From Pelosinus fermentans DSM 17108 (lineage in GTDB: Bacteria > Bacillota > Negativicutes > DSM-13327), in NCBI RefSeq assembly GCF_000271485.2, contig NZ_AKVN02000001.1, forward strand, positions 1,926,001 to 1,990,000: DNA of 64,000 nucleotides. Reading direction: 5' to 3'. The translations under genes were made by a program, and so were the position numbers. Shown here piece by piece: positions 1,133-44,136 of this stretch; the first letter of the stretch is position 1, and every line of letters begins with the position of its first letter. The notes under the pieces were generated by a model that had not been told where the DNA came from, ran no database searches, and was given only the letters and a program-made list of their open reading frames with translations.

Positions 1133-1179
1133 GACTCTTAATCAGTAGGTTCGGGGTTCGATTCCCCGGTGTGTCACCA
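1133..1179 (+). other. tRNA-Lys(CTT) 3' half, probable att site of an integrated element
   Basis: The sequence contains an anticodon loop CTCTTAA (anticodon CTT at 1137-1139), the 3' anticodon stem TCAG, a variable loop, a T-arm CGGGG-TTCGATT-CCCCG, the 3' acceptor strand GTGTGTC, discriminator A and encoded CCA at 1177-1179. The expected 5' half (GACACAC acceptor strand, D-arm, 5' anticodon strand) is absent upstream, so this is not a functional tRNA. A 3' tRNA copy is what site-specific recombinases leave at the distal end of an element inserted into a tRNA gene. A good terminator follows at 1189, as expected for native sequence downstream of a tRNA. The element should therefore lie to the left, with the intact tRNA beyond the window. 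Confidence 0.75.
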
Positions 1180-1188
1180 GTAAATTCA

Positions 1189-1216
1189 AGGGTTTGCAGA
1201 GATGCAAGCTCTTTTT
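1189..1216 (+). terminator. Terminator downstream of the tRNA-Lys fragment
   Basis: A 9-bp stem (GGGTTTGCA with TGCAAGCTC, including G-T wobbles) and a GAGA loop are followed by a run of Ts, 10 bp after the CCA end. This is a typical tRNA terminator left in place after the scar formed. Confidence 0.65.
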
Positions 1217-1301
1217 TATGTTCACTGAGTCTTTTTTGTTTTAGTGCTTTTGAATTACTGTTACAGGTACAAAAACATAACTTAATATAGATAAAAAAAT
1301 T

Positions 1302-1327
1302 AGCAGGCTATTTTGCCTGCTTTTTTG
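1302..1327 (+). terminator. Rho-independent terminator
   Basis: Stem AGCAGGC/GCCTGCT, loop TATTTT, then a T run. It isolates the siderophore operon from anything upstream. Confidence 0.7.
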
Positions 1328-1521
1328 CTTTTTTATATAACTACATAATTTGGCTAAATTATGCAGTTAACTAGATTGGGGCAATTTGCGTCCTTAGTTC
1401 TTCGTAGGGGGTGACTTATATGATATATAAAACGTTAAAATGTATACTCCATATTTACCGCAGAATTTTATTTAGAGAATATCATCGGGAAAAAATACAT
1501 TAATATTTGGAAATATATCCA

Positions 1522-1550
1522 TTTACTGGTATTTTTTAAATTGGTATTAT
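1522..1550 (+). promoter_or_regulatory. Candidate promoter of the siderophore operon
   Basis: TTTACT (1522-1527) and TATTAT (1545-1550) are spaced by 17 bp. The Fur box at 1564-1582 would then cover the start site and early transcribed region. The match to consensus is moderate. The interval 1328-1770 holds nothing else I can recognise apart from the Fur box. Confidence 0.4.
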
Positions 1551-1563
1551 ATTGAATAATGAT

Positions 1564-1582
1564 ATTGATAATTATTATCAAT
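1564..1582. promoter_or_regulatory. Fur box controlling the siderophore operon
   Basis: A 19-bp perfect palindrome contains TGATAAT-T-ATTATCA (1566-1580), an exact match to the 7-1-7 Fur/Per-type consensus. It lies about 190 bp before dhbA and just downstream of a candidate -10. Iron-loaded Fur bound here should block transcription when iron is plentiful, which fits a siderophore operon. Confidence 0.88.
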
Positions 1583-1770
1583 GAATTGCTTGAAAGATAG
1601 ATTGACAATGGAAGATAAAGGGGGGGATTACTGTAAATTTATTAGAGCTATGTTGATTTCTAATAGTAATTAATCACTAATATCGCAAGTAACTCAATTA
1701 TGTTTTTATTTTTAAGGATAGTGTTATACCTTAGTTTATCGGTCAATGTTTAAAGAAAGGAAATGGTAAG

Positions 1771-2556
1771 ATGAACTATTTAAAAATGAAAGGGAAGATT
1801 GCGCTTGTTACAGGAGGTGCCCAAGGCATTGGAGAGTCTGTCGTTCGGGCATTAATTGAATCCGGTGCAGTTGTTGCTATATTAGATCATAATGCAGCAA
1901 AACTTAATAGTCTTGTAAACGAATTGAAGTTACAAGGGTGCAATGTAGAGGCATTTCCTGTAGATATCAGTGATAGTAAAGCTGTTACTACAGTTGTAGA
2001 TTTGATTGAAGATGATATTGGTCCTATTGATATTTTAGTAAATGTTGCTGGTGTACTACGTATAGACTTAATTAGTTCACTTAGTGATCAGGATTGGGAG
2101 AAGACTTTTGCAGTTAACTCAACAGGGGTCTTTAATGTATCCCGTTCTGTGAGTAAGCACATGATTTCTCGCCAAAAAGGATCAATTGTAACTGTTGGGT
2201 CAAATGCCACAAGAGTTCCTCGAATATCAATGGCAGCTTATGCAGCTTCCAAAGCTGCTGCCACCATGTTTACTAAATGTTTAGGCTTAGAACTGGCTCA
2301 GTATAATATTCGTTGCAATATAGTTTCACCTGGGTCTACAGATACTGAAATGCAATGGTCTCTGTGGAAAGATGAGAATGGAGCACGAGCTGTTATTGAA
2401 GGTTCTCCTGAAGCATTTAAAATAGGAATTCCACTAAAAAAAATAGCAACACCTTCTGACATAGCAGATGCTGCCCTCTTTTTAGCTTCTGAGCGGGCCA
2501 ATCATATTACAATGATTGACTTGTGTGTGGATGGCGGAGCTACTTTAGGAGTCTAA
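1771..2556 (+). CDS. dhbA: 2,3-dihydro-2,3-dihydroxybenzoate dehydrogenase
   Basis: A 261-aa short-chain dehydrogenase that oxidises 2,3-dihydro-2,3-dihydroxybenzoate with NAD+ to 2,3-dihydroxybenzoate, the third dedicated step from chorismate. The sequence shows the Rossmann glycine motif TGGAQGIG at 14-21, NVAG at 91-94, Ser144 and the catalytic pair Tyr157/Lys161 in YAASK, with the C-terminal GG expected of the family. Length matches EntA/DhbA (248-261 aa). The start is supported by GAAAGGAA upstream. It is the first gene of the operon, downstream of the Fur box, and 62 bp before dhbC. SDR specificity alone is ambiguous; the assignment to dhbA comes from the neighbouring dhbC, dhbE and dhbB. 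Confidence 0.93.
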
Positions 2557-2618
2557 AATGCGCTTAACGATCTCTTTGAATATAGGATATTTAGTTAATA
2601 AAGGAGGCAATAAAAAAT

Positions 2619-3854
2619 ATGAAACATCAGAGTAATTCTGCAGTATTAGAAAAACAGCTTTTAAATGATTATCAGGTTGGTGATTTTTTCTTCGCTTCAC
2701 CAAAGAGAACGCTGTTGGGAAAAGGTTCTTTTGCTGTGATTCCAAGTGATCCCAAAAAAGAGAATCAATTGGAATGTCTTGCTGAACGTGTTTTGGTTGC
2801 ATTAGAAAATGCTAAAGAGCATGGTTATAGCAATCCAGTAGTTGTAGGAGCAGTGCCATTTGATTATAAAAAGAATGTCCAATTGATTGTACCTGAAACG
2901 ATGAAGTTATCAACTCCGTCACAATTCGATTCTGTCAATCCATTGCAATCGTCGATGGCATCTACATATCAAATTAAATTTGTACCGGAACCTGCTCAAT
3001 ATAAAGAAGGGGTAGGAAAAGGGATTCATTATATAAAGAATGGTCATCTTAGTAAAATTGTTTTATCAAGATCTCTGCACCTTACTTCATCGACAACAGT
3101 AAATATCCATCAGCTGCTTCATAATTTAGCACAACACAATACTCTTGGCTATACTTTTGCCGTTGATTTGCCTAAGACTATTTTAGATAAATCTGGCTTA
3201 ACGGTCTCTTTCTCAACAGGCAGAACATTAATTGGAGCCAGCCCTGAACTGCTTGTTACAAAAACGGGATTACATTTGATGGCTAATCCATTGGCAGGCT
3301 CTAGACCTCGCAGTGAAGATCCTGCAGAAGATCAGCGATTAGCTGCAGAGCTGCTTTCATCTACTAAGGATTTACATGAACATCAGGTTGTTGTTAGTGC
3401 AGTTGCTGATGCTCTTAGACCTTATTGTCTTACATTGGATGTGCCGGACAAGCCTTCATTAATGCATACAGAGACAATGTGGCATCTTTCAACAGTGATA
3501 AAGGGGGAGATTGCAAGTCCTTCGACTTCTTCTTTAGAGCTGGCAATCGCTCTTCATCCGACTCCTGCTGTTTGCGGGGCTCCTAGGGAGCTAGCACGAG
3601 AGGCAATTGGAGAAATTGAACCATTTGACCGAGGATTTTTTGCCGGGATGGTTGGCTGGTGCGATGCAAATGGTGATGGTGAATGGGCAGTCACTATTCG
3701 CTGCGCAGAGGTAGAGGCACATTCCCTTCGGTTGTTCGCAGGAGCTGGAGTGGTTGCTGAATCAACCCCAGAAGAAGAATTGGCAGAAACGTCAGCAAAG
3801 TTTCGTACCATGCTGTTTGCTATGGGACTGAGTAAGGATGTGATATATAAATGA
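2619..3854 (+). CDS. dhbC: Isochorismate synthase
   Basis: A 411-aa member of the chorismate-utilising (anthranilate/isochorismate synthase) family. It converts chorismate to isochorismate with Mg2+, committing chorismate to catechol siderophore synthesis. Visible family motifs are AGSRPR near residue 227, [14 protein letters not shown] near 312 and [12 protein letters not shown] near 337, followed by the conserved Arg of VTIRCAE and the FAGAGVV segment. Length matches DhbC/EntC (391-398 aa) with a slight N-terminal extension. An AAAGGAGG Shine-Dalgarno precedes the ATG. It overlaps dhbE by 4 bp (ATGA), indicating translational coupling. A menaquinone-type MenF role is less likely because it is embedded in the dhb operon. 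Confidence 0.94.
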
Positions 3855-5479
3855 TGCTAACTAAATATCCTTCTTGGCCTAAAGAGTTTGTTGATTTCTA
3901 CAGGAGGGAGAACTGCTGGCGCGGGGAAACATTTGGCACAATGCTGCGTGAACGTGCTAAAAGCCAACGTGAACGCATTGCCATTACAAGCGGAGAAATA
4001 AGTCTCAGTTATGCAGCATTAGACAATGAAGCTGACCGTTTAGCTGCTGGATTTCAGGCACTAGGCATAAAGAAGGGAGATCGTGTGGTACTTCACCTTC
4101 CTAATGTAATTGAGTTTTTTACAGTTATTTTTGCATTATTCAGGTTGGGGGCATTGCCTGTCTTTGCTCTCCCTTCACACCGAAGCAGTGAAATTAACTA
4201 TTTTTGTGAGTTTACTGAAGCCGTTGCCTACGTTATCCCAGATATTTACGCTGAGTTTGACTATCGTACACTTGCAAGAGAGGTTAAAAGTACAGTTTCA
4301 ACCTTACAGCATGTAATTGTAACAGGTGATTCTGAGGAATTTATATCTTTGGCAGATCTGTATGCAGATACTCTTACTGAACCACCAGAAGTAAGCCCTG
4401 GGGATATTGCTTTTCTTCAATTGTCTGGGGGGAGTACCGGATTATCCAAGTTAATTCCCCGAACACATGACGATTATATATATAGTTTGAGAGTCAGTGA
4501 TGAGATTTGTCAAATGGATCAGAATAGTGTATATCTTGCTGCTCTCCCTGTTGCGCATAATTATCCCCTTAGTTCACCTGGTGTACTTGGCACGTTGTAT
4601 GCAGGCGGTAGAGTTGTTCTTGCAGCTGGGGCTAGCCCGGATGAAGCATTTCCTCTTATTGAGCGTGAAGGCGTTACGATTACGGCGCTTGTACCGCCAC
4701 TTGCTTTAATATGGCTTGAAGCTGTATCTTCCCGCCATTATGACTTGTCTAGTCTTAAAGTGCTGCAAGTTGGTGGAGCTAAATTCAGTGAGGAAGCGGC
4801 GCGTCGAGTAAAACCTGCATTTGGTTGTATGCTGCAGCAAGTGTTTGGCATGGCCGAAGGGTTAGTTAATTATACAAGATTAGACGATTCTGAAGAAACG
4901 ATTGTGAGTACGCAAGGGAGACCCATGTCAAAGTATGATGAAATTCGGATAGTGGATGAAGACGATGTTGATGTGGAGCCAGGCAGCGTTGGACAATTAT
5001 TGACAAGAGGACCTTATACCATTCGTGGGTATTACAAAGCTGAAGAACATAATGCTAAGGCATTTACTCCCGATGGTTTTTTTCGAACAGGGGATTTGGT
5101 AAAAGTCAATGAGTCTGGGTATTTTGTCGTGGAAGGCCGCGATAAGGATCAAATCAATCGTGGTGGTGAAAAAGTTGCAGCGGAAGAAGTTGAGAATCAT
5201 CTCCTTGCTCATGATGCTGTACTTGATGCAGCAATTGTTTCAATGCCCGACGAATTTCTTGGGGAAAGATCATGTGCTTTTGTAATACCACGCCACCAAA
5301 CTCCAACTGCGGGTGAGCTTAAAAGATTTTTAAGGGAACGTGGAATCGCTGCTTTTAAAATTCCTGACCGGATTGAATTTATCCATTCGTTTCCTTATAC
5401 TCCATTAGGAAAAGTAAGTAAGAAAAAATTGCGTCAGATGATTGCTAAGAAACTTATAGTCCGTGCTGCTGCAAATTGA
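3851..5479 (+). CDS. dhbE: 2,3-dihydroxybenzoate-AMP ligase
   Basis: A 542-aa stand-alone aryl-acid adenylation enzyme. It activates 2,3-dihydroxybenzoate with ATP and loads it on the aryl carrier domain of DhbB. The phosphate-binding loop [10 protein letters not shown] begins at residue 191, an RTGDLV core motif and QINRGGEKV follow, and the catalytic lysine of [10 protein letters not shown] is Lys521. Length equals EntE/DhbE (536-539 aa). The 4-bp overlap with dhbC and the short gap to dhbB place it in the same transcript. A salicylate ligase would look alike; the adjacent dhbA argues for 2,3-dihydroxybenzoate. Confidence 0.95.
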
Positions 5480-5510
5480 TAAAGGTATATAAAAATAAAG
5501 GAGTGATTCG

Positions 5511-6416
5511 ATGGCTATTCCTGCTATCTCACCATATTCCATGCCTATGGCATCAGATTTTCCTCAAAACAGAGTATCCTGGAAAGCAAATCCGAAACGT
5601 TCGGTACTTCTCATTCATGATATGCAACAGTATTTTCTTAATGCTTATACCTTGGGGGAATCACCAATAATACAGCTTATCGAGAATATACAATTATTAA
5701 AAGCCCAATGTACAGAACTTGGTATACCCATTGTTTATACGGCACAGCCAGGTGATCAGAGACCTGAAGATCGAGCACTTCTTCAAGATTTCTGGGGACC
5801 AGGACTTGCTGATGATCCTTCTCAAACAAAAGTAATAGATGAGGTTGCGCCTAACGCAAGCGACACTGTGCTTACAAAGTGGCGATACAGTGCATTTAAG
5901 AGAACCAAACTTATGGAAATCATGCAGGAACAAGGGCGTGATCAACTGATTATTTGTGGTGTTTATGCTCATATTGGTTGTCTTTTAACAGCATGTGATG
6001 CCTTTATGCAAGACATGGAAACCTTCTTTGTGTGCGATGCAGTAGCAGATTTTTCTGCAGATCATCATAAGATGGCGATGACATATGCGGCTGATCGTTG
6101 TGCAGTAACTATTTCAACAGCGTTGCTGCTAGAGCAATTGAAAAGCATTCAGCTATCATCTAACAAAGCGGTAACAAAAGCGAATTTACACAGTCTGACA
6201 CAGCCGCTTGTGCGCCAGCAAGTTGCTGAACTTCTTGGCGAATCACCATCAGATATTGATGACAACGAGGATTTAATTGACAGGGGTTTAGATTCAATTA
6301 GAATGATGAGTCTTGTTGAGAGATGGCGCAGTAAAGGGGCTGATGTTACTTTTGTGAAGCTTGCTGCAGGACCGACGATTTCTGCTTGGTGGAATCTATT
6401 ATCATCTGCAAAATAA
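5511..6416 (+). CDS. dhbB: Isochorismatase with C-terminal aryl carrier domain
   Basis: A 301-aa bifunctional protein. Residues 1-210 form the isochorismatase that hydrolyses isochorismate to 2,3-dihydro-2,3-dihydroxybenzoate and pyruvate. Asp37 (LIHDMQ) and Lys123 (TKWRYSAF) are in place, and the nucleophile Cys of related amidohydrolases is replaced by Gly156 in GVYAHIG, as expected for isochorismatases. Residues 230-301 form the aryl carrier domain with phosphopantetheine site Ser262 in GLDSIR. It receives DHB from DhbE and presents it to the first condensation domain of DhbF. AAAGGAG supports the start. The length lies between EntB (285) and DhbB (312). Confidence 0.95.
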
Positions 6417-6462
6417 GAAACGCTGTATCATAAATGCTAATTATAAAGGAGGTCATGAAAGA

Positions 6463-9400
6463 ATGCCAAATTGTCAAGAAGCTCGTTGGACCTTGACCGG
6501 TGCGCAATCTGGTATCTGGTTCGCTCAACAACTTGAGCCAGAAAATCCGATTTATAATGCTGGTGAATATATAGAAATTAATGGGGAAATTGATTTAGAA
6601 TGCTTTGAACAAGCGCTGAGGCAGGGTGTAAGGGAAACAGAATCGTTACATGTTAAATTTGGCGTAAATGAACAGGGACCATGGCAAGTTATCCGCCCTG
6701 CTTCTGAATTTCCTTTACATGTTTTCGATGTCAGTGCAGAGGAACACCCGCAGCAAGCAGCGCAAAAGTGGATGAATGATGACCTTGCAAGTCCGATTGA
6801 TCTCAGACTGGATCCTCTTTTCTGCCAAGCTTTATTTAAAGTTTCATCCAATCGCTTTTTCTGGTATCAGCGTATTCATCACATTGTAATGGATGGATTT
6901 GGTTTTTCACTTATTTCGCAGCGCGTGGCTAGCCTTTACACTGCACTTATAAATAATCTTGCTTATGATGAAGGTGCTTTTGCTCCTTTACGTTTGGTTC
7001 TGGAAGAAGACGTATCGTATCGTGCCTCAGAGAATTTTTTGCGGGATCGTCAGTTTTGGCTAGAACGTTTTGCAGATGGACCGGAGGTTATTAGTTTAGC
7101 AAATCGAGCACCTAGGACTTCTAAGAGCGTCTTTCGCCAGACCGCTAACTTATCACCGTCTATCACGCATTCCTTGCAGACCGCAGCGCGCAATTTTAAA
7201 GGAAGCTGGCATGAAACGCTGATTGCAGCAACAGCTGTTTATGTACACCGTTTGACAGGGGCACAAGATGTAATTCTTAGTTTGCCAATGATGGGACGGT
7301 TAGGCTCCGCTTCACTGAATATTCCTAGCATGGTAATGAATTTGCTGCCGCTTCGTTTGCTAGTACGACCAGATATGGAATTTACAGAACTGGTAAAACA
7401 AGTTTCAAAAGAAGTGCGCAGCGCGGGGCGACATAAAAATTACCGACATGAGGAACTACGTCGTGATCTTAAGCTGCTTGGCGAGAATCAGAGATTATTC
7501 GGTCCGCAAATTAATATAATGCCTTTTGAGTATGGGCTGGACTTTGCTGGGAATAAAGGGATTATACATAAGTTAGCGACCGGTCCTGTTGATGATTTGT
7601 CTATTAACGTTTATAACAAATCAGATGGAAATGGATTAAGAATTGATTTAGAGGCTAATCCTGAAGTTTACAGTCCCAGCGATTTGGCTATTCACCAGAA
7701 ACGCTTTCTAGGCTTTCTTGAAAAAATTGCAACTGCGAAGCAGGATCAACTCATAGGAAAAATGGAGCTTCTCTTGCCTGAGGAGTGTGAACGGGTATTG
7801 GTTCATTGGAATCAAACGGCCCAAACATTACCGTCTGTTGACCTGCCAACATTGTTTGAGAAACAAGTTTCTGAAAATCCTGAGTTGACTGCCCTAGTAT
7901 GTGGGGACACCGTTCTTAGTTATAAGGAGTTAAATAAAAGGGTAAATCGTCTTGCTCATCTATTGATTGATCAAAAGCTGGGACCTGAGAAATTTGTGGC
8001 TTTAGCAATGCCACGTTCAGTAGAAATGGTTATCGCCATGCTGGCTGTTCTTAAGACGGGAGCTGCGTATTTGCCCATTGATCCAGATTATCCAGCAGAC
8101 CGGATTGAATTTATGCTAAGTGATGCCCAGCCTGTTTGCATGATTACAAGTACAGCAGTTGCATCAAAAGTACCCGTTGCTAGTACCCAGTTCAGGATTG
8201 TAATTGATACAGCAGAGATTGCTGGGACACTTGAGAATTATCCTGACACTAACGTATTGAGCTTACAGCGTAAAGTAGTTATTTCACCAATTAATCCAGC
8301 TTATATGATCTATACGTCGGGCTCTACGGGCAAGCCAAAAGGTGTTGTCGTTCTATCGGAAAGTTTAATTAATTTTCTTCAATCAATGCAAAGCCATTTT
8401 TCACTAACTCAGCAAGATCGACTTCTTGCCGTAACTACTATCGCTTTTGATATTTCAGGTTTGGAAATATTTCTTCCTCTTATCACTGGAGCAAGTTGTA
8501 TCATTGCTGAAAAGGAAACCGTTCAAGATCCTCTAGCCTTAACAAATATGATCGAAAAAAACAATATTACGATTATGCAAGCTACGCCAACGCTTTGGCA
8601 TGTCCTAGTGACAAACTATCCAAATGCGTTACGTGGACTCAGAGTTCTGGTTGGAGGAGAAGCACTTCCAATCAGTCTTGCAGCCGCTTTGCATGGTTTA
8701 GGCTGCGAAGTTACCAATCTATATGGACCAACTGAAACGACGATTTGGTCAACCGCAGTTACCCTTGATCCTGAGCAGACGGGAGTACCTTCTATCGGAA
8801 AGCCAATTTGGAATACTCAGATGTATGTGTTAGATTCTGGTTTACAGCCAGTTCCTCCGGGAGTTGCAGGAGATTTATATATTGCTGGTACGGGACTCGC
8901 TCGCGGTTATTTAGGTCGTCCAGCTTTGACGTCTGAACGCTTTGTTGCGAATCCTTATGGTCCTAAGGGAAGTCGAATGTATCGAACTGGCGACCTTGTT
9001 CGTTGGAGTCCTGACGGTTCTTTAGATTACATTAGCCGCGCTGATCATCAAATTAAAATGCGTGGTTTTCGAATAGAGCTTGGAGAAATTGAGGCTGTAC
9101 TTGCCAAGCATTCTGCTATTGACCAGGTTACGGTTATTGTTCGTGAAGATCAGCCAGGAGATAAGCGTTTGGTAGCCTATATTGTTCCTGCTTTGAACAA
9201 TAGTCCGGATTCAGCCGAGCTCCGTCAGTATATGGGGAGTCGTCTGCCAGATTATATGGTACCTTCCGCATTCGTGCTAATGAGCGAGTTGCCGCTGACA
9301 CCAAATGGCAAGATTAATCGTAAAGAGCTGCCGGTACCTGATCTCTCTGCAATAGCTACTAGCCGCGGGCCTAGGTCGCCCCAAGAGGGAATTTTGAGGG

Positions 9401-12400
9401 ATTTGTTTGCCGAGGTTCTGGGGATTTCTCATATTGGGATCGATGATAGCTTTTTTGATTTAGGTGGTCATTCTCTTCTTGCATCCATTCTAATGATTCG
9501 CATACGTGACACTTTTGGTGTCGAACTAGGCATTGGTAAAATTTTTGAATCGCCTACAGTTGCAGGTCTCGTAGAGCAGCTGAGCAGCGGCAAGAGTGCA
9601 CGATTACCTGTGCATAAAGCTGTAAAACGCTCAAAGATCCCCCTTTCTTTCGCACAGCGCCGCCTATGGTTCCTTTACCGCCTGGAAGGTCCTAGTCCAA
9701 CCTATAATATTCCAATGGTTGTACACCTGTCGGGAAAACTAGACCGAAGTGCGTTGCAGGGAGCTATGAATGATGTGGTTGAACGTCATGAAATCTTGCG
9801 TACTATCTTCCCGGAGACGATGGGCATCTCCCATCAATGCGTTTTAGATGCTGCTGCGGCAAAAGTAGAGCTGCTTATTTCGAATATCAGTAAGACCGAA
9901 CTTCAAAATAAGCTTACTGATGCTGTGCGATATCGTTTTGATCTGGCAGCAGAACCAGCCATTCGCGCACAACTTTATATACTTGGACCAAATGAACATG
10001 TTCTGCTGCTTTTATTACATCATATTGTAGGAGATGGATGGTCGCTAACACCACTTACACGTGATCTTAGTGCAGCCTATAATGCACGTCGCTCTGGTGC
10101 AACTGTTAATTGGCCGCCGTTACCGGTACAGTATGCTGATTACGCCCTTTGGCAGGAAGAGCTTTTGGGCAATGAGAATAATGAAGATAGTTTGGCTTAC
10201 AAACAACTTGAATTCTGGAAGGAGGCACTTGCTAATCTGCCGGATCAGTTAGAATATCCTACAGATTACAAACGTCCAGAGGAGGCTAGTTATCGTGGTG
10301 AAACGCTGGAGTTTTATATCAATCCAGAACTGCATCGTCGCTTACTTGCTCTTGCCAAGGGGAGCGGTACCAGCTTATTTATGGTATTGCAGTCTGGGCT
10401 TGCTGCATTGCTTACCCGGCTTGGTGCAGGTACTGATATTCCTATTGGCAGTCCAATTGCCGGGCGCAGTGATGATGCTTTAGGCAATCTTGTAGGATTG
10501 TTCGTTAATACCTTAGTGCTGCGTACAGACACATCTGGTGATCCTAGCTTCCGTGAACTTTTGAATAGAGTCCGAAAGGTTAATCTAAATGCTTATGAAA
10601 ATCAAGACTTACCTTTTGAGCGGCTTGTTGAGGCTCTTAATCCAGTTCGGTCAAGAGCAAGACATCCTCTGTTTCAGATCATGTTGGCATTACAGAATAC
10701 GCCTGATCCTAATCTGGAAATGTCTGATCTTCAAAGTGATTTTCAGCTTCATAGTGTAGGTGCAGCAAAGTTTGATCTTACGATGGAACTTCGAGAGTTG
10801 CATACTAAAGAGGGGCATCCGGCTGGTCTGAATGGGTTTCTCGAATATAGTACAGATTTATTTAAACGTGACACGGTTAAGCTTCTTATCGACCGTATGC
10901 TGAGGCTATTGGAAGCTGCCTCTTCTGATCCAGATCAGCTGATTGGACGTTTAGAAATCCTATCCTCAGAAGAACGCCAAAAGATACTCATCGATTGGAA
11001 TCAAACTTCAGAAGAAACACGATCAAATTGTTTAACGACATTGTTTGAGGAACAAGTTACCCGAAGCCCTAAAGAAATTGCGGTGGTATTTGAGGATGCA
11101 GCATTTACCTATGAAGAGCTAAACAGGAGAGCCAATCAACTTGCCCATCTGCTGATTGCCAAGGGAGTAGGACCGGAACAATTTGTTGCGTTAGTCTTGC
11201 CTAGATCATTAGAAATGATTGTGGGTATGCTTGCTGTACTCAAGGCAGGTGCAGCATATCTGCCTATAGATCCAGAATATCCAAGTGATCGGATCGCGTT
11301 TATGCTTGGCGATGCGCTGCCTACGTGCATTTTTACAAATTTGAATGTAGCGTCAAAGCTGCCTATGATAAGGAATGGAATACAAGTTATTCTTGATGAA
11401 GTTAGTACAATAGAGGGATTAAAACAGTATCCAGCTGCCAATCCGGTTGATGCTGACCGTGTTCAACCATTATCACCTTTTCATTCAGCGTATATTATTT
11501 ATACTTCTGGTTCAACGGGTGTGCCAAAAGGCGTAGTCATTCCCCATCAAAATGTCGTTAGACTTTTTGGAACGACTGAACATTGGTTCCATTTTGATTC
11601 AGATGATGTGTGGACAATGTTTCATTCTTACGCATTTGATTTTTCCGTGTGGGAGATTTGGGGGGCGTTGCTGCATGGAGGTCGCCTAGTTGTCGTACCT
11701 CTTTCCATTAGTCGATCACCAGCAGAGTTTTTACAACTGCTTGTGAGTGAAAAGGTAACTGTTCTTAACCAGACCCCATCAGCATTCTATCAATTAATGC
11801 AGGCTGATCGAGAATGTCCAGATCTTGGGCAGGAGCTTTCCTTGCGCTTCGTGATTTTCGGTGGTGAAGCACTTGAGCTTAGTCGATTGGAAGATTGGTA
11901 TAGCAGGCATCCAGAAAATGCTCCAACTCTTATCAATATGTACGGCATCACGGAAACGACTGTACATGTCAGCTACCTTGCGCTTAACAAGAACATTGCT
12001 TCTAGGAAAGGAAACAGTCTTGTTGGTTGTGGTATAACAGATCTTGATGTGTACGTATTAGATGCTCACTTACAGCCAGTTCCGCCTGGAGTAGTGGGGG
12101 AACTATATGTTGCTGGAGCTGGACTCGCTCGTGGTTATTTAGGGCGACCTGGTCTGACGGCTCAGCGTTTTGTAGCGAATCCATTTAGTTCCTCAGGTAC
12201 TCGAATGTATCGTACGGGTGATTTAGCTCGCTTTCATGAGGATGGTTCTTTAGATTATATGGGGCGTGCAGATCATCAGATTAAGATTCGGGGGTTCCGT
12301 GTTGAACTGGGGGAAATTGAGGCTGTACTTGCAAAACATTCTAATGTTGAGCAAGTTGCGGTGATCGTTCGTGAAGACCAGCCAGGCGATAAGCGTCTAG

Positions 12401-13644
12401 TCGCTTATGTTGTATCTGCCGTAAAAAGCAGTTTTGATTCAGCTCATTTGCGGCGATATGTCGCCGATGTTCTCCCTGACTACATGATTCCTTCTGCTTT
12501 TGTAGAAATTGCAGGTCTACCGTTGACATCGAATGGAAAGCTTGATAGTAAAGCCTTACCGGCACCTGATTTTGGTGCAGTAGTAATAGGACGTGGACCT
12601 AGAACACCTCAAGAAGAGGTACTTCGTGATCTGTTTATGGAAGTTCTCGATTTGCCACGTGTTGGTATTGATGATGGTTTCTTTGACCTAGGAGGTCATT
12701 CTCTGCTTGCTGTGCATTTAATGAGTAAAATTCGTGAATCCCTCGGAGTTCAATTGAATATTGGCAATTTATTTGAGGCTCCTACGGTTGCTGGTCTTGC
12801 CGAACGACTTGAAATGGGTACTAGCCAAAGTGCATTGGATGTTCTGCTGCCTCTTAGATCCAATGGAGAACAACCCCCACTCTTTTGTGTGCATCCAGCA
12901 GGAGGGCTTAGCTGGTGCTATGCAGGACTGATGACATCCTTAGGAACCGATTATCCAATCTATGGGTTACAAGCTCGGGGTATTTCTGAATTAGTAGAAT
13001 TTCCCCAGACACTGGATGAAATGGCAGCTGATTATATCAAGCATATCCGTACCATTCAGCCAGTCGGTCCTTACCATCTACTCGGATGGTCTCTCGGAGG
13101 AAACATCATACAGGCAATGGCAACTCAGCTGCAAAATCAAGGGGAAACAATCAATCTTGTTGCCATGCTCGACGCTTATCCAAGTCACTTTTTGCCGATT
13201 AAAGATGCTCCTGATGAGGAAGAATCACTTATTGCCCTGCTTGCTTTAGGTGGTTATGATCCCGAAGGTCTAGGAGATAAACCGTTAGATGTTGCTAGTA
13301 CGATTGAAATACTTCGTCGGGATGGAAGCGCATTAGCAAGTTTAGAAGAGAGGACTATTTTGAACCTCAAAGAAACATATGTGAATTCAGTTCGTATTTT
13401 GAGTCAATACCGGCCTAAACCCTTTAATGGGAATATCTTGTTTTTTAGATCGACCATAATACCAGAGTGGTTTGATCCCATTTACCCAGAATCATGGAAG
13501 CCTTATATTGATGGACAAATTGAGCAATATGATATTGAGTGTCGTCACAAGGATATGTGCCAGCCCGGACCACTTGCTGCGATTGGGCAGATACTTGCAA
13601 GCAAACTGTGTGTAGCAGTAACTAATGAAGGAGGAGATAAATGA
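6463..13644 (+). CDS. dhbF: Dimodular nonribosomal peptide synthetase (bacillibactin-type DhbF)
   Basis: A 2393-aa synthetase with domain order C-A-PCP-C-A-PCP-TE. C1 has HHIVMDG at 139-145; A1 has [11 protein letters not shown] from 617; PCP1 Ser is 1004; C2 has HHIVGDG at 1186; A2 has [11 protein letters not shown] from 1680; PCP2 Ser is 2080; the thioesterase shows GWSLGG with Ser2210, Asp2237 and His2362. Reading the ten specificity positions gives DILQVGLIWK for A1 (one change from the glycine code DILQLGLIWK) and DFWNIGMVHK for A2 (the threonine code). The predicted product is cyclic (DHB-Gly-Thr)3. I chose ATG 6463, after AAAGGAGG; the upstream in-frame TTG at 6361 would overlap dhbB. 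Length and architecture match Bacillus DhbF (2378 aa). Confidence 0.95.
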
Positions 13645-13883
13645 TGATCAATCCTTTTGAGAACGAAAACGGTACCTATGTTGTATTGATGAATGAGGAA
13701 GGTCAATATTCTCTCTGGTCTGCTTTTCTGGATGTACCTGCTGGATGGGCTGTTGTATATGGAGAAGAAAGTCGCTTGGTATGCCTAGACTACATCAACT
13801 CGCAATGGTGCGATATGCGCCCCAATAGTCTAAAGTCTGTCACAAGTCTTAGTAAGGAGAGTGACAATGAGGATACAGCTTAA
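13641..13883 (+). CDS. MbtH-like protein
   Basis: An 80-aa MbtH-family accessory protein that binds NRPS adenylation domains and raises their activity or solubility, here presumably those of DhbF. The family signature is clear: NPFEN at the start, Y-S-L-W, VPAGW, V-x-G, CLDYI and W-C-DMRPNSL (the usual T before DMRP is Cys here, and the usual P of SLWP is Ser). It overlaps the end of dhbF by 4 bp and overlaps the MFS gene by 17 bp, so all three should be translated together. The same position after dhbF is seen in Bacillus. Confidence 0.93.
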
Positions 13884-15321
13884 TCCTAAATTAGTGGTTA
13901 GTATTGTATATGTAACAGCTATGTTTATGGCTGCAATGGACGGGACGATTGTAAATGTAGCCCTGCCTGCTATTAGTAATGAATTTCAAATTCCTCCAAC
14001 GGCTACCAGTGGAATTAATGTTGGATACTTAGTAAGTATTGCTGTGTTTCTTCCAATGGCAGGATGGCTTGGGGATCGATTTGGAACCAAGAGGATTTTT
14101 TTAATTGCGCTAAGTCTATTTACATTTGCATCAGTCTTATGTGGATTTGCTGATAATCTTCAGACTTTGAATGTATTTCGCGTACTTCAGGGGGCTGGAG
14201 GAGGATTGCTTACTCCAGTGGGAATGGCAATGTTGTTTAGAATATTTTCTCCCGAAGAACGGCTAAAAGTATCTCGATCTCTTGTTTTTCCCATTGCGAT
14301 TGCACCTGCTCTTGGTCCAATCATTGGTGGAGTATTTGTAGAACAGTTATCTTGGCGGTGGGTGTTCTACATCAATCTTCCTTTAGGGATTGTAGCATTG
14401 CTGTTTGGTTTCCTGTTTCTTATTGAACACAAAGAGCCCGAGGCAGGCCCTATAGACCTGCCGGGTTTCTTACTGTCAGCTCCGGGTTTTTCTATGTTGA
14501 TGTATGCGCTTATTCAAGGTTCTTCTCAAGGATGGAGTTCTCCAGTTATCCTTGGCACAGGAATTTGTGGCCTCATTATGGTTTGCATTTTAGTTTTAGT
14601 TGAACTGCGTGTGGAAAAACCGATGCTCGATTTACGTTTATTATCTGATCGATTGTTTCGCACGATGAGTATAATCTCACTATTTGCAGTTGCTGGTTTA
14701 GTAGGGATACTCTTTATTTTTCCCTTGATGTACCAAAATACAATAAATGCATCAGCTTTAGAAAGTGGGCTTATTATTTTTCCAGAAGCATTGGGGTTGA
14801 TGCTTGCATCCCGATTAATGCCTTGGTCATACAAAAAGTTAGGTGGGCGGCAAGTTATTTCCATTGGATTACTTGGCACGATAGTAGTGTTTGTGCTGTT
14901 AAGTATGGTTGGACCAGAAACAAATTTATGGTTTCTTAGATCTTTATTCTTTAACATCGGATTTTTCTTAGGCCACGCTGTGGTTGCGGTACAGTTCCTT
15001 ACCTTCAATAACATCACTCCTGCTTCAATGGGGAGGGCAACGACATTGTTCAACGTTCAAAATCGAATTGCTTCAGCCCTTGGTGTAGTATTGTTGGCCA
15101 GCCTTCTTGGGGCATTCGGTACTGGGACTACTGGTGCAAATGGGATAGAACAGCCTCTTTTAGCAGCTTATCAGTTCACATTGCTTGGTTCTGCTGCTTT
15201 TTTATTGGTGGGTCTGTTTTTTGCCCTGGGAATTCGGAATGCGGATATTGCAGCTGTCGTGCCAAAGCAATCTCCTGCGCAAAACTCTGAGATGGGGGCA
15301 ATTGTAAAAGTAAGCGAGTAA
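13867..15321 (+). CDS. MFS transporter (DHA2, 14-TM type), probable siderophore exporter
   Basis: A 484-aa multidrug-type major facilitator of the EmrB/QacA (DHA2) family with about 14 hydrophobic segments. Motif A-like [11 protein letters not shown] follows TM2, motif C-like [15 protein letters not shown] lies in TM5, and [12 protein letters not shown] is the family's TM1 signature. In this operon its likely job is proton-driven export of the finished catechol siderophore from the cytoplasm. ATG 13867 is preferred over the GTG two codons upstream because AAGGAG sits 7 bp before it. Substrate is inferred from context only; a drug exporter cannot be excluded. Export across the outer membrane would need another component not seen here. 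Confidence 0.85.
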
Positions 15322-15398
15322 TGCGTCATACATACTAAATATATCTTTAGGTTAGAGGAAGGGAAATTTTATACGTATTGGAGGGAGGTTACAGTACA

Positions 15399-16109
15399 TT
15401 GATCGAAGTGTATCTTTGCGAATTACCAAAAGAGAAGAATCGAATTGTTTTAGAGAAACTGCTGACCAACGTTTCGTCTGAGAAGCAGGAGCGTATTAAA
15501 AAATTTGTTAAAATCAATGATGCATATCGGACATTATTGGGAGAACTCTTGGTACGATTTGCTCTATATAAACGATATGGTTCTATTCCAAAACAATTAG
15601 AATTTGATAAAAATTTTTACGGAAAACCATTTTTATGTCAATATCCTTTTTTTCATTACAACGTATCCCATTCTGGAGACTGGGTAGTATGCGCTGTTCA
15701 TAATAAAAGAATTGGAGTTGATATAGAAAAAATTCTACCTTTTGATTGGCAAATGGCAAAAGGATTTTTTACAAGAGGAGAATATTGGGAGTTGTTGAAT
15801 ACAAAAAAGGAAAGAAACACTTTCTTTTATGATATATGGACTTTAAAAGAGAGCTATGTGAAAGCACAAGGCAGAGGATTGTCTATTCCTTTAAATTCTT
15901 TTAATGTGAAAAAACATACCTCCGATAGGATAACATTGACGGATATGAACACAGGTAAAGCAATTACAGATTTTACTTGTAAACAGTATAAGATTAATAA
16001 TCAGTATAGGCTTTCAGTTTGTGCAAATCATGATAATAGGAATCACTTTGCGAAATTACCTTTTTTAGTTTCTTTCAATAAGATATGCAATGATTTAAAG
16101 ATTTCTTAG
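15399..16109 (+). CDS. sfp: Sfp-type 4'-phosphopantetheinyl transferase
   Basis: About 236 aa. It transfers phosphopantetheine from CoA to carrier-domain serines, here Ser262 of DhbB and Ser1004/Ser2080 of DhbF. The Mg2+/CoA motifs are present: IGVDIEKI near residue 111 and [15 protein letters not shown] near 146, with KPF and FNVSHS (here [10 protein letters not shown]) before them, so this is the Sfp/Gsp type and not AcpS. GGAGGGAGG lies 10 bp before TTG 15399, which I take as the start; an in-frame TTG at 15378 would itself contain this site. Its composition is somewhat more AT-rich than the genes before it. Confidence 0.9.
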
Positions 16110-16158
16110 CGCAGATCAAGAGCCAATAATTAAATCAAATGACGAAAGGGTGACAATA

Positions 16159-17235
16159 ATGAGTAATAACGAATTACGTCAATTGCAAACAAGAGTCGAC
16201 GATGTAAATTTGAAGATATTAAAGTTAATTAATGAAAGAGGTAAACTGATTCAAGATATAGAGCAAGCCAAGGGAACCCAAGAAATTCACCAATACGATC
16301 CGATCAGTGATAGAAAAATGCTGGATAACATTCATGACTATAATAATGGCCCTTTCAAAAAATCAACCATTGAGCATATTTTTAAGGAAATTTTTAAAGC
16401 TGGATTAGAACTTAATAAAAATGATCACCGCAAGGCGCTGCTCGTCTCACGTAAGTACAAGCCAGAGAATACCATCGTAAACCTTAGAGGTGAACAAATT
16501 GGTGATAATAAACAGCATTTCATATTTGGACCTTGCGCTGTAGAATCCTATGAACAAGTAGCTGCAGTAGCAAACGCCATGAAGGAAAAGGGCCTGAAAC
16601 TTTTAAGAGGAGGAGCTTATAAACCGCGAACCTCTCCCTATGACTTCCAGGGGCTGGGGATTGAGGGCTTGAAAATTTTAAAACGTATTGCCGATGAATA
16701 TGATATGGCAGTAATCAGTGAAATAGTCAATGCTGCTGATCTCAAAATGGCTGCAAACTACATTGATGTCATTCAAATTGGATCTAGGAATATGCAAAAC
16801 TTTGAGCTGTTAAAGGAAGCTGGAGGGATGAAGAAACCTGTACTTCTAAAAAGGGGCTTAGCGGCTACGATTGAAGAATTTATTAATGCGGCAGAGTATA
16901 TAATGTCACAGGGCAATGACCAAATTATTCTTTGCGAACGAGGGATTAGAACCTATGAAACCGCAACTAGAAATACGTTAGATATCTCAGCTGTTCCAAT
17001 ATTAAAACAAGAAACACATTTGCCGGTTTTTGTTGATGTAACTCATTCTACAGGGCGGAGGGATTTATTATTGCCTGCCGCTAAAGCTGCAATGGCAATT
17101 GGAGCAGATGGAGTCATGGCTGAAGTACATCCAGATCCTGCTGTAGCACTGTCTGACTCTGCACAGCAAATGGATTTAAAACAGTTTGATCATTTCTTTA
17201 ATGAATTGTTATCTTCAAAATTCATCAAAGTTTAA
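16159..17235 (+). CDS. aroF: Bifunctional chorismate mutase / 3-deoxy-7-phosphoheptulonate (DAHP) synthase
   Basis: A 358-aa protein with an AroQ-type chorismate mutase-like domain (residues 1 to about 85) fused to a KDO8P-like class Ib DAHP synthase (about 105-358). It makes DAHP from PEP and erythrose 4-phosphate, the first step to chorismate. Motifs are [41 protein letters not shown] and [18 protein letters not shown]. Length and most of the sequence closely follow Bacillus AroA. The N-terminal domain in that family senses chorismate or prephenate. Lying 49 bp after the PPTase with the same orientation, it probably raises chorismate supply for dihydroxybenzoate synthesis. ATG 16159 is preferred; an upstream GTG at 16150 abuts the ribosome-binding site. 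Confidence 0.93.
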
Positions 17236-17236
17236 T

Positions 17237-17289
17237 ATAGAAAAGCAACGGTTGTCTGTCTTCACAGAGTTAGTCAGAAGCTTTTCTAT
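17237..17289 (+). terminator. Inverted repeat at the end of the siderophore operon
   Basis: Arms ATAGAAAAGC (17237-17246) and GCTTTTCTAT (17280-17289) enclose a 33-nt loop just after the aroF stop. No long T run follows the second arm, although the arm itself is T-rich. It probably ends or stabilises the operon transcript. Confidence 0.5.
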
Positions 17290-17301
17290 TAGCATATCTA
17301 T

Positions 17302-17363
17302 AACGCTAAAAAGTCCGTGAATTCACCTTTCAAGGAGGCGATATACATGGCCTTCTTAGCGTT
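17302..17363. terminator. Bidirectional hairpin between aroF and the lipase gene
   Basis: AACGCTAAAAAG and CTTCTTAGCGTT pair with one mismatch. TTTTTATT-like sequence follows on the plus strand. It sits at the convergent ends of the siderophore operon and the reverse-strand lipase gene (stop at 17365). The loop contains an AAGGAGG and a 9-codon ATG frame that I treat as chance. Confidence 0.55.
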
Positions 17364-17364
17364 T

Positions 17365-18744
17365 TTATTGCTCTAGCTGATTGGCGTATACTTGATTTTT
17401 GGTAGATTCATGTATGGTTGCATCACGCAGCCAAGTATGCTGGAGGGAATTCATTCCTTTGGAAGCATGGATAAAAGCCTCTAGGGGAGTTAAGTTGTAA
17501 GTTCCTGTGGAAAAAATGGCAGTATCAACAACAGCGCCGGTAGCGACATCATACACTGTCTGGCTTATTGCTATGTAATAGGTGCTTCTTTCTTGCTTTA
17601 CGCGTATTGCATTCACTTCAGATAGTATCGCCCATTGGCAGCCGGAGGCAATTGCTGCTTCTCGCCATGAAGTAGATGTCGCTTCATTCGATAAAGTATA
17701 ATTTGGTATTGTCTGTCGGTATTCATCAGATAACGCCTCGTTCATATACCAAAAGTCTGTTGTCAAACTTGCTGGTAGATTATTTTGGAGTGGGGCAATG
17801 TAGACGCGTCCGTGATTTGAGCGTTTGGCGGCAGCAGTCGGAGCAGGCAGATGGATTCCGGCTGCTGCTGCTTGGCGGCGTTGATCATAATAATTCTTTA
17901 ATGCGGAGTCTAAGTAACCAATCAATAAATGGGGATCATTAACGGTGGGAGGTGTAGTCCATTTGATTTCTTGGCCAAACTGTTTGTACCCGCCAACTAA
18001 GGTTTGCAGGATGCCGGTAACTGGATCACCGGAATTGACTACCCGTGTCAGAGAAAGAAGGGGTTCGAATTTAGCAGCAAACGCAGCATTACCCACTGCA
18101 GGAGCGCCAAAGGTAATGACTCTGATTTGCTCAGGGCGAATTCCCATACTGATCAGCCTTGCTCCGGTTAAGGTTGCGGCTGCGCCTCCCAAACTATGAC
18201 CGGTAAGGTAAATCTTGTTTCTGCTGTCATTTAGAAGTAAATCTGGTAGAGAAAATGGTGTCTGGTAGGCATCCCGCAAGGTTGCAGAGGGACCGGCCTG
18301 CACAAACTCGTAAAAACCTCTATGAACTTTTGGTTCACTATTAGGAACCTTTTCTTTGGCGGCATTGGCTGAGAATTCTTCTTCACTGCTGCCTGCAAAA
18401 TATACTTTATCAAACTTTAGGTTTGCCTTAATATCTCCATTGCTTTCTGTCCCAACAATTGCTAGAAAATACAACGGAACATTTGTATCCAGATCTTTTT
18501 TTGCCACAAGAAAGCGGATGCCAGTGTGACCTTGTGGTTGGACATAATGATCAATTTGCCATCCGTCCTGTTCCAGATACCGGGTGGCTAATTCACCAAC
18601 CCGACCGCTGTAAGCCGCTGTACTGGCCCCTGCTGCAATATATAATAAATAGGCTTCCTCATATTCTTCTTTTGGTCCGGCATAGGAAAGAACCGGACTC
18701 CACAATAGTATAAGGCTGAGTAGAGAAAGGAATATTTTTTTCAT
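17365..18744 (-). CDS. Secreted class 3 lipase-like protein
   Basis: A 459-aa protein starting at ATG 18744. It has a Sec signal peptide (MKKIFLSLLSLILLWSPVLSYAG, cleavage after about residue 22) and a class 3 lipase domain: the HRGFYEF element at 141, nucleophile Ser184 in TGHSLGG, Asp240 in NSGDPV and a likely catalytic His272. The C-terminal 150 residues after an Ala-rich stretch are unassigned. It should hydrolyse acyl esters outside the cytoplasmic membrane. GGAGG lies 7 bp before its ATG, giving it an independent start. The frame continues without a stop into the truncated UbiB reading frame upstream, so a read-through fusion of 751 aa (from 19620) is formally possible but would bury the signal peptide. 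Confidence 0.85.
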   Translation of the reverse strand: MKKIFLSLLSLILLWSPVLSYAGPKEEYEEAYLLYIAAGASTAAYSGRVGELATRYLEQDGWQIDHYVQPQGHTGIRFLVAKKDLDTNVPLYFLAIVGTESNGDIKANLKFDKVYFAGSSEEEFSANAAKEKVPNSEPKVHRGFYEFVQAGPSATLRDAYQTPFSLPDLLLNDSRNKIYLTGHSLGGAAATLTGARLISMGIRPEQIRVITFGAPAVGNAAFAAKFEPLLSLTRVVNSGDPVTGILQTLVGGYKQFGQEIKWTTPPTVNDPHLLIGYLDSALKNYYDQRRQAAAAGIHLPAPTAAAKRSNHGRVYIAPLQNNLPASLTTDFWYMNEALSDEYRQTIPNYTLSNEATSTSWREAAIASGCQWAILSEVNAIRVKQERSTYYIAISQTVYDVATGAVVDTAIFSTGTYNLTPLEAFIHASKGMNSLQHTWLRDATIHESTKNQVYANQLEQ

Positions 18745-19620
18745 ACAGAAACCTCCATCAGTCCACAACTTATTCAGTAGTGCTTCTCTAAGGATAACAC
18801 GTTTGGACAGGTAATGTCGAAGATTTTGGCTATCAAATGGTTCGGCAACATCAAGAATGTTCAGGCTTGGATCCAGTCTTTCAACAATTTCTTCCATAGT
18901 AAGTAATACCGTGGAGTAGTCCCAATAGATTTTGGGAACATAGATCAGGGGATTATTTATAAATTGTTTTGAAATTTTTTCTGCATTGCGGGCTTCACTC
19001 GTGTAGTCAAGTTCACTGCGAAGAGATTTTGAGAATTCATCAATCATATCCATGACCTGATACGATTTTGCCCAGTGAAAACGTCGTTCTGCCAAGTTAG
19101 ACAACTCATAAAGAATCTCCAAATCTGTTTGGATATCAATAGCAATACTGGGACGCTGAATTTTTACGGCAACTGTCCTTCCTGTTTTCAAAACGGCCTT
19201 ATGGACTTGTCCGATAGAAGCTGCCGCTATCGGCTGTGGTTCAAAGTGCTGAAAAAAATTTTCTACAGTTCCTCCCAGCTCTTCTTGAAGTACAGAAAGC
19301 ACATCAGTGAAGGGAAAGGCAGGAACTGCATCTTGAAGTTTTTCCAATTCGTCAATAATATCCGGGGGAAGAAGGTCTGGTCGTGTGCTGGCAATCTGAC
19401 CGAGTTTGACATAGGTTGGACCTAATTGCTCAAGAACCAGTCGAATTCGCTCAGCTACGCCTCCAGTATTCTCCTTTGCAAATACTGGACGAACACGCTG
19501 GTAATAGGGGACTTTCTGCATCAAGCCTGTTTCTTCTACAATATAGTCGAACCCTTGACTTAGCAGTGCAGTAGCAATTTCACGATACCGATTGATATGG
19601 CGTACTCTCTTTGCAAACAT
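18745..19620 (-). pseudogene. ubiB: UbiB/AarF (ABC1 kinase-like) protein, truncated at the catalytic loop
   Basis: The reverse strand encodes 292 residues of a UbiB-family protein, about half the usual 500-560. The N-terminal hallmarks are present: KLGQ of the KxGQ motif at 72-75 (VKLGQIASTRPDLLPPDI), the Ala-rich loop AAASIGQV at 132-139 and the nucleotide-binding Lys153 in VAVKIQRP. The frame then stops resembling UbiB at LWTDGGF, where family members continue with FHADPHPGN. The catalytic loop, metal-binding Asp and C-terminal membrane helices are missing and the lipase gene starts at once. The start at 19620 follows AGGAGG. It is therefore a deletion remnant, or a pseudokinase fragment, and unlikely to support quinone biosynthesis. 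Confidence 0.82.
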
Positions 19621-19800
19621 GAATACCTCCTGAATCAAACACAAAATCTTTGTTTCATGCTGCCTTACATTTGAAGTCGTATTTTATAAATATCCCCTCT
19701 TATGACAGTGCATATACTTTTTCTCAGCAGATTTTATCGTTCTTCTAAAGTTGATTTTAGAGAAAGTAAAGACAATGCATACCAAATTTGGAGAAATGAA

Positions 19801-19826
19801 GAATTGTGACTGATTAGTCACAATTC
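19801..19826. promoter_or_regulatory. CRP/FNR-like palindromic operator
   Basis: Perfect 11-bp arms (GAATTGTGACT and its complement) are separated by 4 bp. The core is TTGTGAC-N6-GTCACAA, like sites of the CRP/FNR superfamily. A TATAAT at 19843-19848 without a good -35 places the palindrome centre (19813.5) near -41.5, the position used by class II activators. Confidence 0.5.
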
Positions 19827-19842
19827 TGTCATATTTATCATT

Positions 19843-43867: not shown

Positions 43868-44136
43868 ATATTTTTAGAGGCTATGATAGGAAGGAGTACG
43901 TTATTACCGCCGTATAGAGAGGAGATCCGTGGCTGAAAGATCTCTCGGAAGTGGGATAGCGGAAGGTAGTCCTGGAGCTATTGCATTGAATTGATAGTAG
44001 GTGCAGTCGGTATGCCCCGTTATGGTACTGGAGTTTGAGTGATTCTAAAGAGTAGAGTTATCTCAAAGAAACAAGGTGGTACCACGAAAGTATGCTCTTT
44101 CGTCCTTTTAGGATGAAAGGGCTTTTCTATTTTTTC
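43868..44136 (+). promoter_or_regulatory. valS: T-box leader of valS
   Basis: The 5' leader carries a structured stem I region (AGAGAGGAGATC pairing with GATCTCTC), the conserved T-box segment AAGGTGGTACCACG at 44073-44086, whose TGGT bulge pairs with the NCCA end of uncharged tRNA, and an intrinsic terminator (GCTCTTTCGTCC/GGATGAAAGGGC, 44094-44122, then Ts). Uncharged tRNA-Val stabilises the antiterminator and allows valS expression. A GTC at 43969-43971 is a candidate specifier codon for valine, but I cannot place it with certainty. Confidence 0.9.

Follow-up and report, generated by a model that had tools for sequence, protein, structure and literature searches.

A single open reading frame on the minus strand of the Pelosinus fermentans DSM 17108 genome (G000) joins the beginning of a UbiB-like atypical kinase to a class 3 lipase, which raises the question of whether it encodes a genuine fusion protein, reflects an assembly error, or is the remnant of a broken ubiB gene that reads into its neighbour. 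The locus lies within a 64,000-nucleotide stretch of DNA, referred to here as the window. The frame is free of stop codons from 17365 to 19644, and is 759 amino acids long from a TTG codon and 751 amino acids long from the ATG at 19620, ending at the lipase stop codon (17365-17367). Pfam searches matched ABC1 first in the frame (profile positions 1-148 of 244, E = 4.3e-48) and Lipase_3 3' of it (E = 4.7e-23), bearing out the original prediction that UbiB-like and lipase parts share one frame. Its components, from the 5' end, are as follows.

18911..19620, minus strand: ubiB 5' part, residues 1-237 (JBW45 alignment; Pfam ABC1 profile positions 1-148)
18903..18911, minus strand: junction 1 (alignment with three intact sisters; blastn break at 18911)
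18835..18910, minus strand: island of C-terminal ubiB sequence, 25 residues, VLLTMEEIVERLDPSLNILDVAEPF (JBW45 alignment)
18834..18835, minus strand: junction 2 (sister alignment; blastn break at 18834)
18745..18834, minus strand: remaining intergenic spacer, translated as DSQNLRHYLSKRVILREALLNKLWTDGGFC (residues 263-292; local DNA alignments with sister spacers)
17365..18744, minus strand: class 3 lipase, 459 amino acids (Pfam Lipase_3, 83 bits against a cut-off of 22; GHSLG serine motif)

The frame was compared with 40 genomes (the window genome counted), 35 of which match some part of it, and none besides the window genome gave a match spanning both the ubiB and the lipase parts. The nearest named relatives of the window genome are Pelosinus. 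In P. fermentans JBW45 (G003), P. propionicus DSM 13327 (G001) and an uncultured Pelosinus MAG (G007), an intact 558-codon ubiB precedes the lipase on the same strand, with a spacer of 120, 90 and 116 bp, respectively, between them, so that the separate genes sought in sister genomes were found in all three. Long frames are listed for G003 (1079) and G001 (1055); both contain stops between ubiB and lipase. A true fusion would be expected as a joined frame conserved across lineages; of the four sisters that have both genes, three keep them separate and the fourth (MAG UBA6563, G004) has a broken ubiB. A further genome, G006, has an intact ubiB of 555 amino acids and no lipase within the 7 kb stretch compared. 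Across the eight searched genomes of the genus, the window's included, ubiB is intact in four (G001, G003, G006 and G007), broken in two (G000 and G004) and without a close match in two: G002 (89% complete) has no UbiB match and G005 has only a 33% relative. We found no literature on UbiB in Pelosinus, or on a UbiB/KxGQ atypical kinase joined with a lipase.

The retained 5' part of ubiB is well preserved. It is identical to the intact JBW45 UbiB at 221 of 237 residues, no stop or frameshift was found in the 237 retained codons, and an AGGAGG ribosome-binding site is present at 19626-19631. The N-lobe motifs of UbiB/ABC1 atypical kinases include KxGQ, an A-rich loop and ExD (PMC4718504). As in the wider UbiB/ABC1 family (ADCK/COQ8, AarF; PF03109), the window remnant has KLGQ at residues 72-75 (KxGQ), AAAS at 132-135 (the A-rich loop around 131-135), the VAVK lysine at residue 153 and ELD at 203-205 (ExD), all numbered by eye from the ATG at 19620. 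Unlike the family, it has lost its C-terminal region along with the segments that carry H(A/G)DPHPGN and DFG. The H(A/G)DPHPGN motif of these kinases carries the catalytic Asp; it is absent from the window frame and occurs at residue 285 (282 in G006) in all four intact sister proteins. Likewise, the metal-binding DFG motif is absent from the window UbiB part and is found as LDFGMV at residue 305 (302 in G006) in the same four proteins. Upstream of the remnant, window positions 19734-19807 (approximately 73 bp) stand against approximately 289 bp in JBW45, with G004 resembling the window by eye, and a 12-pair hairpin at 19800-19827 is listed as terminator-like on both strands.

Alignment with the intact sister genes shows where the gene was broken. 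Colinearity ends at residue 237 of the window frame, at junction 1, where approximately 498 bp (166 codons) are lost relative to JBW45, including FHGDPHPGN (285) and LDFGMV (305). Window residues 238-262 then correspond to approximately residues 404-428 of JBW45 UbiB, far 3' of the catalytic motif; within this island, LTMEE...AEPF is identical to JBW45 at 20 of 23 residues and ends in LDVAEPF at JBW45 residue 428. At junction 2, which has at most one base of uncertain origin, approximately 422 bp are lost, comprising ubiB residues 429-558, the stop codon and the beginning of the spacer. The events at junction 1 are ambiguous, perhaps losses of 483 and 15 bp or of 6 and 492 bp; under the former, the 15 bp loss sits between short ATTA repeats (read by eye from the alignment). 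No long repeat was seen by eye at either junction. The frame is kept across both deletions, for which we put the chance, as an estimate, at roughly 1 in 9. The original prediction of a deletion junction was thus right in kind, with the catalytic core gone, but the sister alignment points to at least two deletions, neither of them at the boundary of LWTDGGF with FHADPHPGN. Deletion-derived bacterial pseudogenes may have a frame that runs into the next gene. This case shares with them the internal and 3' deletions, the lost stop codon and the intact neighbour, and differs in that both deletions happen to preserve the frame.

The residues that were taken for UbiB up to LWTDGGF have another origin. 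The UbiB frame was described as normal up to that point; however, it is colinear only to residue 237, and the DNA alignments identify residues 263-292 as spacer. Local alignment of the 90 bases that immediately precede the lipase ATG found matching spacer sequence in G004 (86 of 89 positions identical), JBW45 (81 of 91), G007 (69 of 83) and G001 (42 of 55), all four scoring above every one of 500 shuffles (163 for G004, 0 of 500). When the same tail was aligned to 150 bases of JBW45 ubiB surrounding the catalytic motif, the score was 14, a value that 326 of 500 shuffles reached. Because the tail matches sister spacers and not the catalytic region at the DNA level, LWTDGGF is translated spacer, not UbiB, and its likeness to the sequence before FHADPHPGN is chance. 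A MAFFT protein alignment placed the spacer tail before the catalytic motif, a misplacement overruled by the DNA scores (14 versus 163). Once translated, the spacer looks enough like the UbiB segment preceding the catalytic motif to deceive a protein aligner.

The lipase has its own start codon, an ATG at 18744, and the predicted GGAGG site ahead of it is present at 18752-18756 (by eye). Its N-terminus, MKKIFLSLLSLILLWSPVLSYAG, resembles a signal peptide by inspection only. As a class 3 lipase (PF01764), it has the domain well over the cut-off and the GHSLG motif, with no difference of note. The GGAGG is also present in the four sisters with the ubiB-lipase pair, where the surrounding codons read DGGF in three and NGGF in JBW45. 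Lipase relatives that are 85-95% identical adjoin ubiB or its remains in G004, G003, G001 and G007, and on the strength of this gene order we rejected translocation of the lipase into ubiB. Two more relatives (67% and 50% identity) are encoded elsewhere in the window genome. The deletion had been proposed to give the lipase a new promoter, a suggestion that fails since neither the neighbour nor the ribosome-binding site is new and sisters have both the pair and the GGAGG. Five promoter-like sites were found in the region versus 6.5 in shuffles, which is no excess; a weak site lies in the spacer (18820-18791). On the lipase strand of the JBW45 spacer no promoter-like site is listed, and the like stretch has a 19-base gap (by eye from the alignment). 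A second type of lipid hydrolase occurs beside ubiB in other genomes: a patatin-like phospholipase gene divergently adjoins ubiB in G007 (L040:4503-5303, identified by Pfam PF01734) and in G017, from another family (L042:691-1494, identified by likeness). For a patatin gene like that beside G007 ubiB, the window genome has only partial relatives (32-48%), located elsewhere. That UbiB is found next to lipid hydrolases may merit attention.

The second broken ubiB, in G004, differs from that of the window genome. It lacks 38 bp over the ribosome-binding site and start, has lost another 10 bp and gained 2 bp elsewhere, and has undergone a large deletion that leaves about the first fifth of the gene fused to its final portion; it keeps the ubiB C-terminus lost in the window genome. 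The G004 remnant frame matches no Pfam family, while the G004 lipase frame is open and 95% identical to the window lipase. The losses in G000 and G004 look independent because the alignment has no breakpoint common to the two, and an earlier loss of need for ubiB may have been shared. We also examined selection on the retained codons (236 codons compared). The G000 branch has 14 synonymous and 5 non-synonymous changes, compared to 8 and 4 on the G003 branch and 26 and 5 on the G007 branch, and pairwise dN/dS is 0.178 for G000-G003, 0.071 for G000-G007 and 0.079 for G003-G007. Relaxed selection in these codons is not clearly visible, and the counts are small. The deletions look recent because nothing shows long neutral drift; the pattern fits a recent deletion and also a remnant that has been kept.

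A profile search of the contigs with PF03109 located a complete UbiB elsewhere in the genome (C1:4014240-4014971, 260.7 bits), answering the proposal to look for a second intact ubiB. The ORF encodes 552 amino acids, with YHADPHPGN and IDFGMVG. With no more than 43% identity to the window protein across residues 72-251, it is a paralogue rather than a second copy. A weak third ABC1 match (C1:2390698, profile positions 143-229) was considered as the lost C-terminal half of ubiB and rejected, as it sits in a Ser/Thr kinase-like protein of 626 amino acids, which we take to be a Ser/Thr kinase with PASTA-like repeats. Kinase function was predicted to be lost: the catalytic core is indeed gone from the window copy, but loss of UbiB in the organism does not follow because the complete paralogue remains.

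We compared the window with 60 kb of JBW45, covering window positions 1157-55097, which are colinear by blastn in four long blocks (1157-15338, 15897-18834, 18911-19734 and 19807-55097). At window 15338-15897, where the flanking alignments are 4 bases apart in JBW45, lies most of a 4'-phosphopantetheinyl transferase gene (15378-16109), a part without counterpart here in JBW45; the gene lies 1.7 kb beyond an NRPS gene (6361-13644) that encodes two modules and a thioesterase domain. Several stretches of window 22313-57302, a number of them 1.3-3.6 kb long, align to multiple places in JBW45 at approximately 70-96%, which points to duplicated genes in the region. A T-box leader (43874-44110; Rfam RF00230, 127.1 bits) is located just before an 892-amino-acid ORF (44184-46862).

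This comparison bears on whether the joined frame is an assembly or sequencing artefact, with an intact ubiB at this locus in the real genome. An estimated assembly contamination of 4.74% leaves some room for such an error. However, the 5.03 Mb genome is in two contigs, with the window inside a 5.0 Mb contig, and 39 of 40 matched JBW45 ORFs (read from ATG to stop in six frames, 100 amino acids or longer, some of which may not be genes; counterparts at 65% identity or more) are covered over at least 90% of their length by one window ORF, the sole exception being ubiB. With this and the colinearity, the chimeric assembly suggested in the original prediction is unlikely. The spacer most resembles the one in G004 and is not a foreign piece, and two deletions flanking a homologous island are, in our judgement, atypical of misassembly. 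Real deletions are the better reading of these alignments, and we regard an artefact as very improbable. The reading first proposed, in which UbiB was cut at its catalytic motif by a deletion that joined it to the lipase and supplied a new promoter, accounts for one stop-free frame over both parts; with the lipase adjoining ubiB in sisters too and the supposed UbiB tail being spacer, it is almost certainly wrong.

It is also improbable, though a little easier to entertain, that the 751-amino-acid frame is translated as a working chimera, in which a UbiB N-lobe pseudokinase would be tethered to the lipase and the lipase signal peptide would become an internal signal anchor. In favour of this, ubiB still has its ribosome-binding site and start codon, no stop codon intervenes and the retained codons are not clearly relaxed. 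Nevertheless, the deletions are not common to G004, no other match among the 40 genomes covers both parts, the linker derives from intergenic DNA, and the start and GGAGG of the lipase are both retained, just as in the four sisters that have the pair. That the remnant is both translated and kept, with the UbiB N-lobe, lacking its catalytic core, joined to a lipid hydrolase as a domain that regulates or tethers it, seems to us a highly improbable outcome.

We consider it very likely (roughly 90%) that the locus holds a recently inactivated ubiB paralogue that suffered at least two deletions and reads through by chance into a long-standing neighbour, the lipase. One deletion removed the catalytic core and another the 3' end, taking the stop codon and some of the spacer with it, and the remnant frame was left open into the adjoining gene. 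The lipase would be translated as before, with its putative signal peptide, from its own GGAGG site, unaffected or nearly so, and UbiB activity, if needed, could be supplied by the complete paralogue. What speaks against this reading is that the 237 retained codons are unbroken and not clearly relaxed, and that both deletions preserve the frame. Direct observations are the anatomy of the locus, the order of genes in the sisters, the persistence of a complete paralogue and, in G004, breakage at other points. We infer that the remnant is without function, that the losses were tolerated as the gene was dispensable, and that lipase expression from its own start is unchanged.

Caution is required with automatic annotation, which could label the 751-amino-acid frame a 'UbiB-lipase fusion'. 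Two genomes of one genus have lost this UbiB paralogue at different positions, a hint that it can be dispensed with where another UbiB exists.
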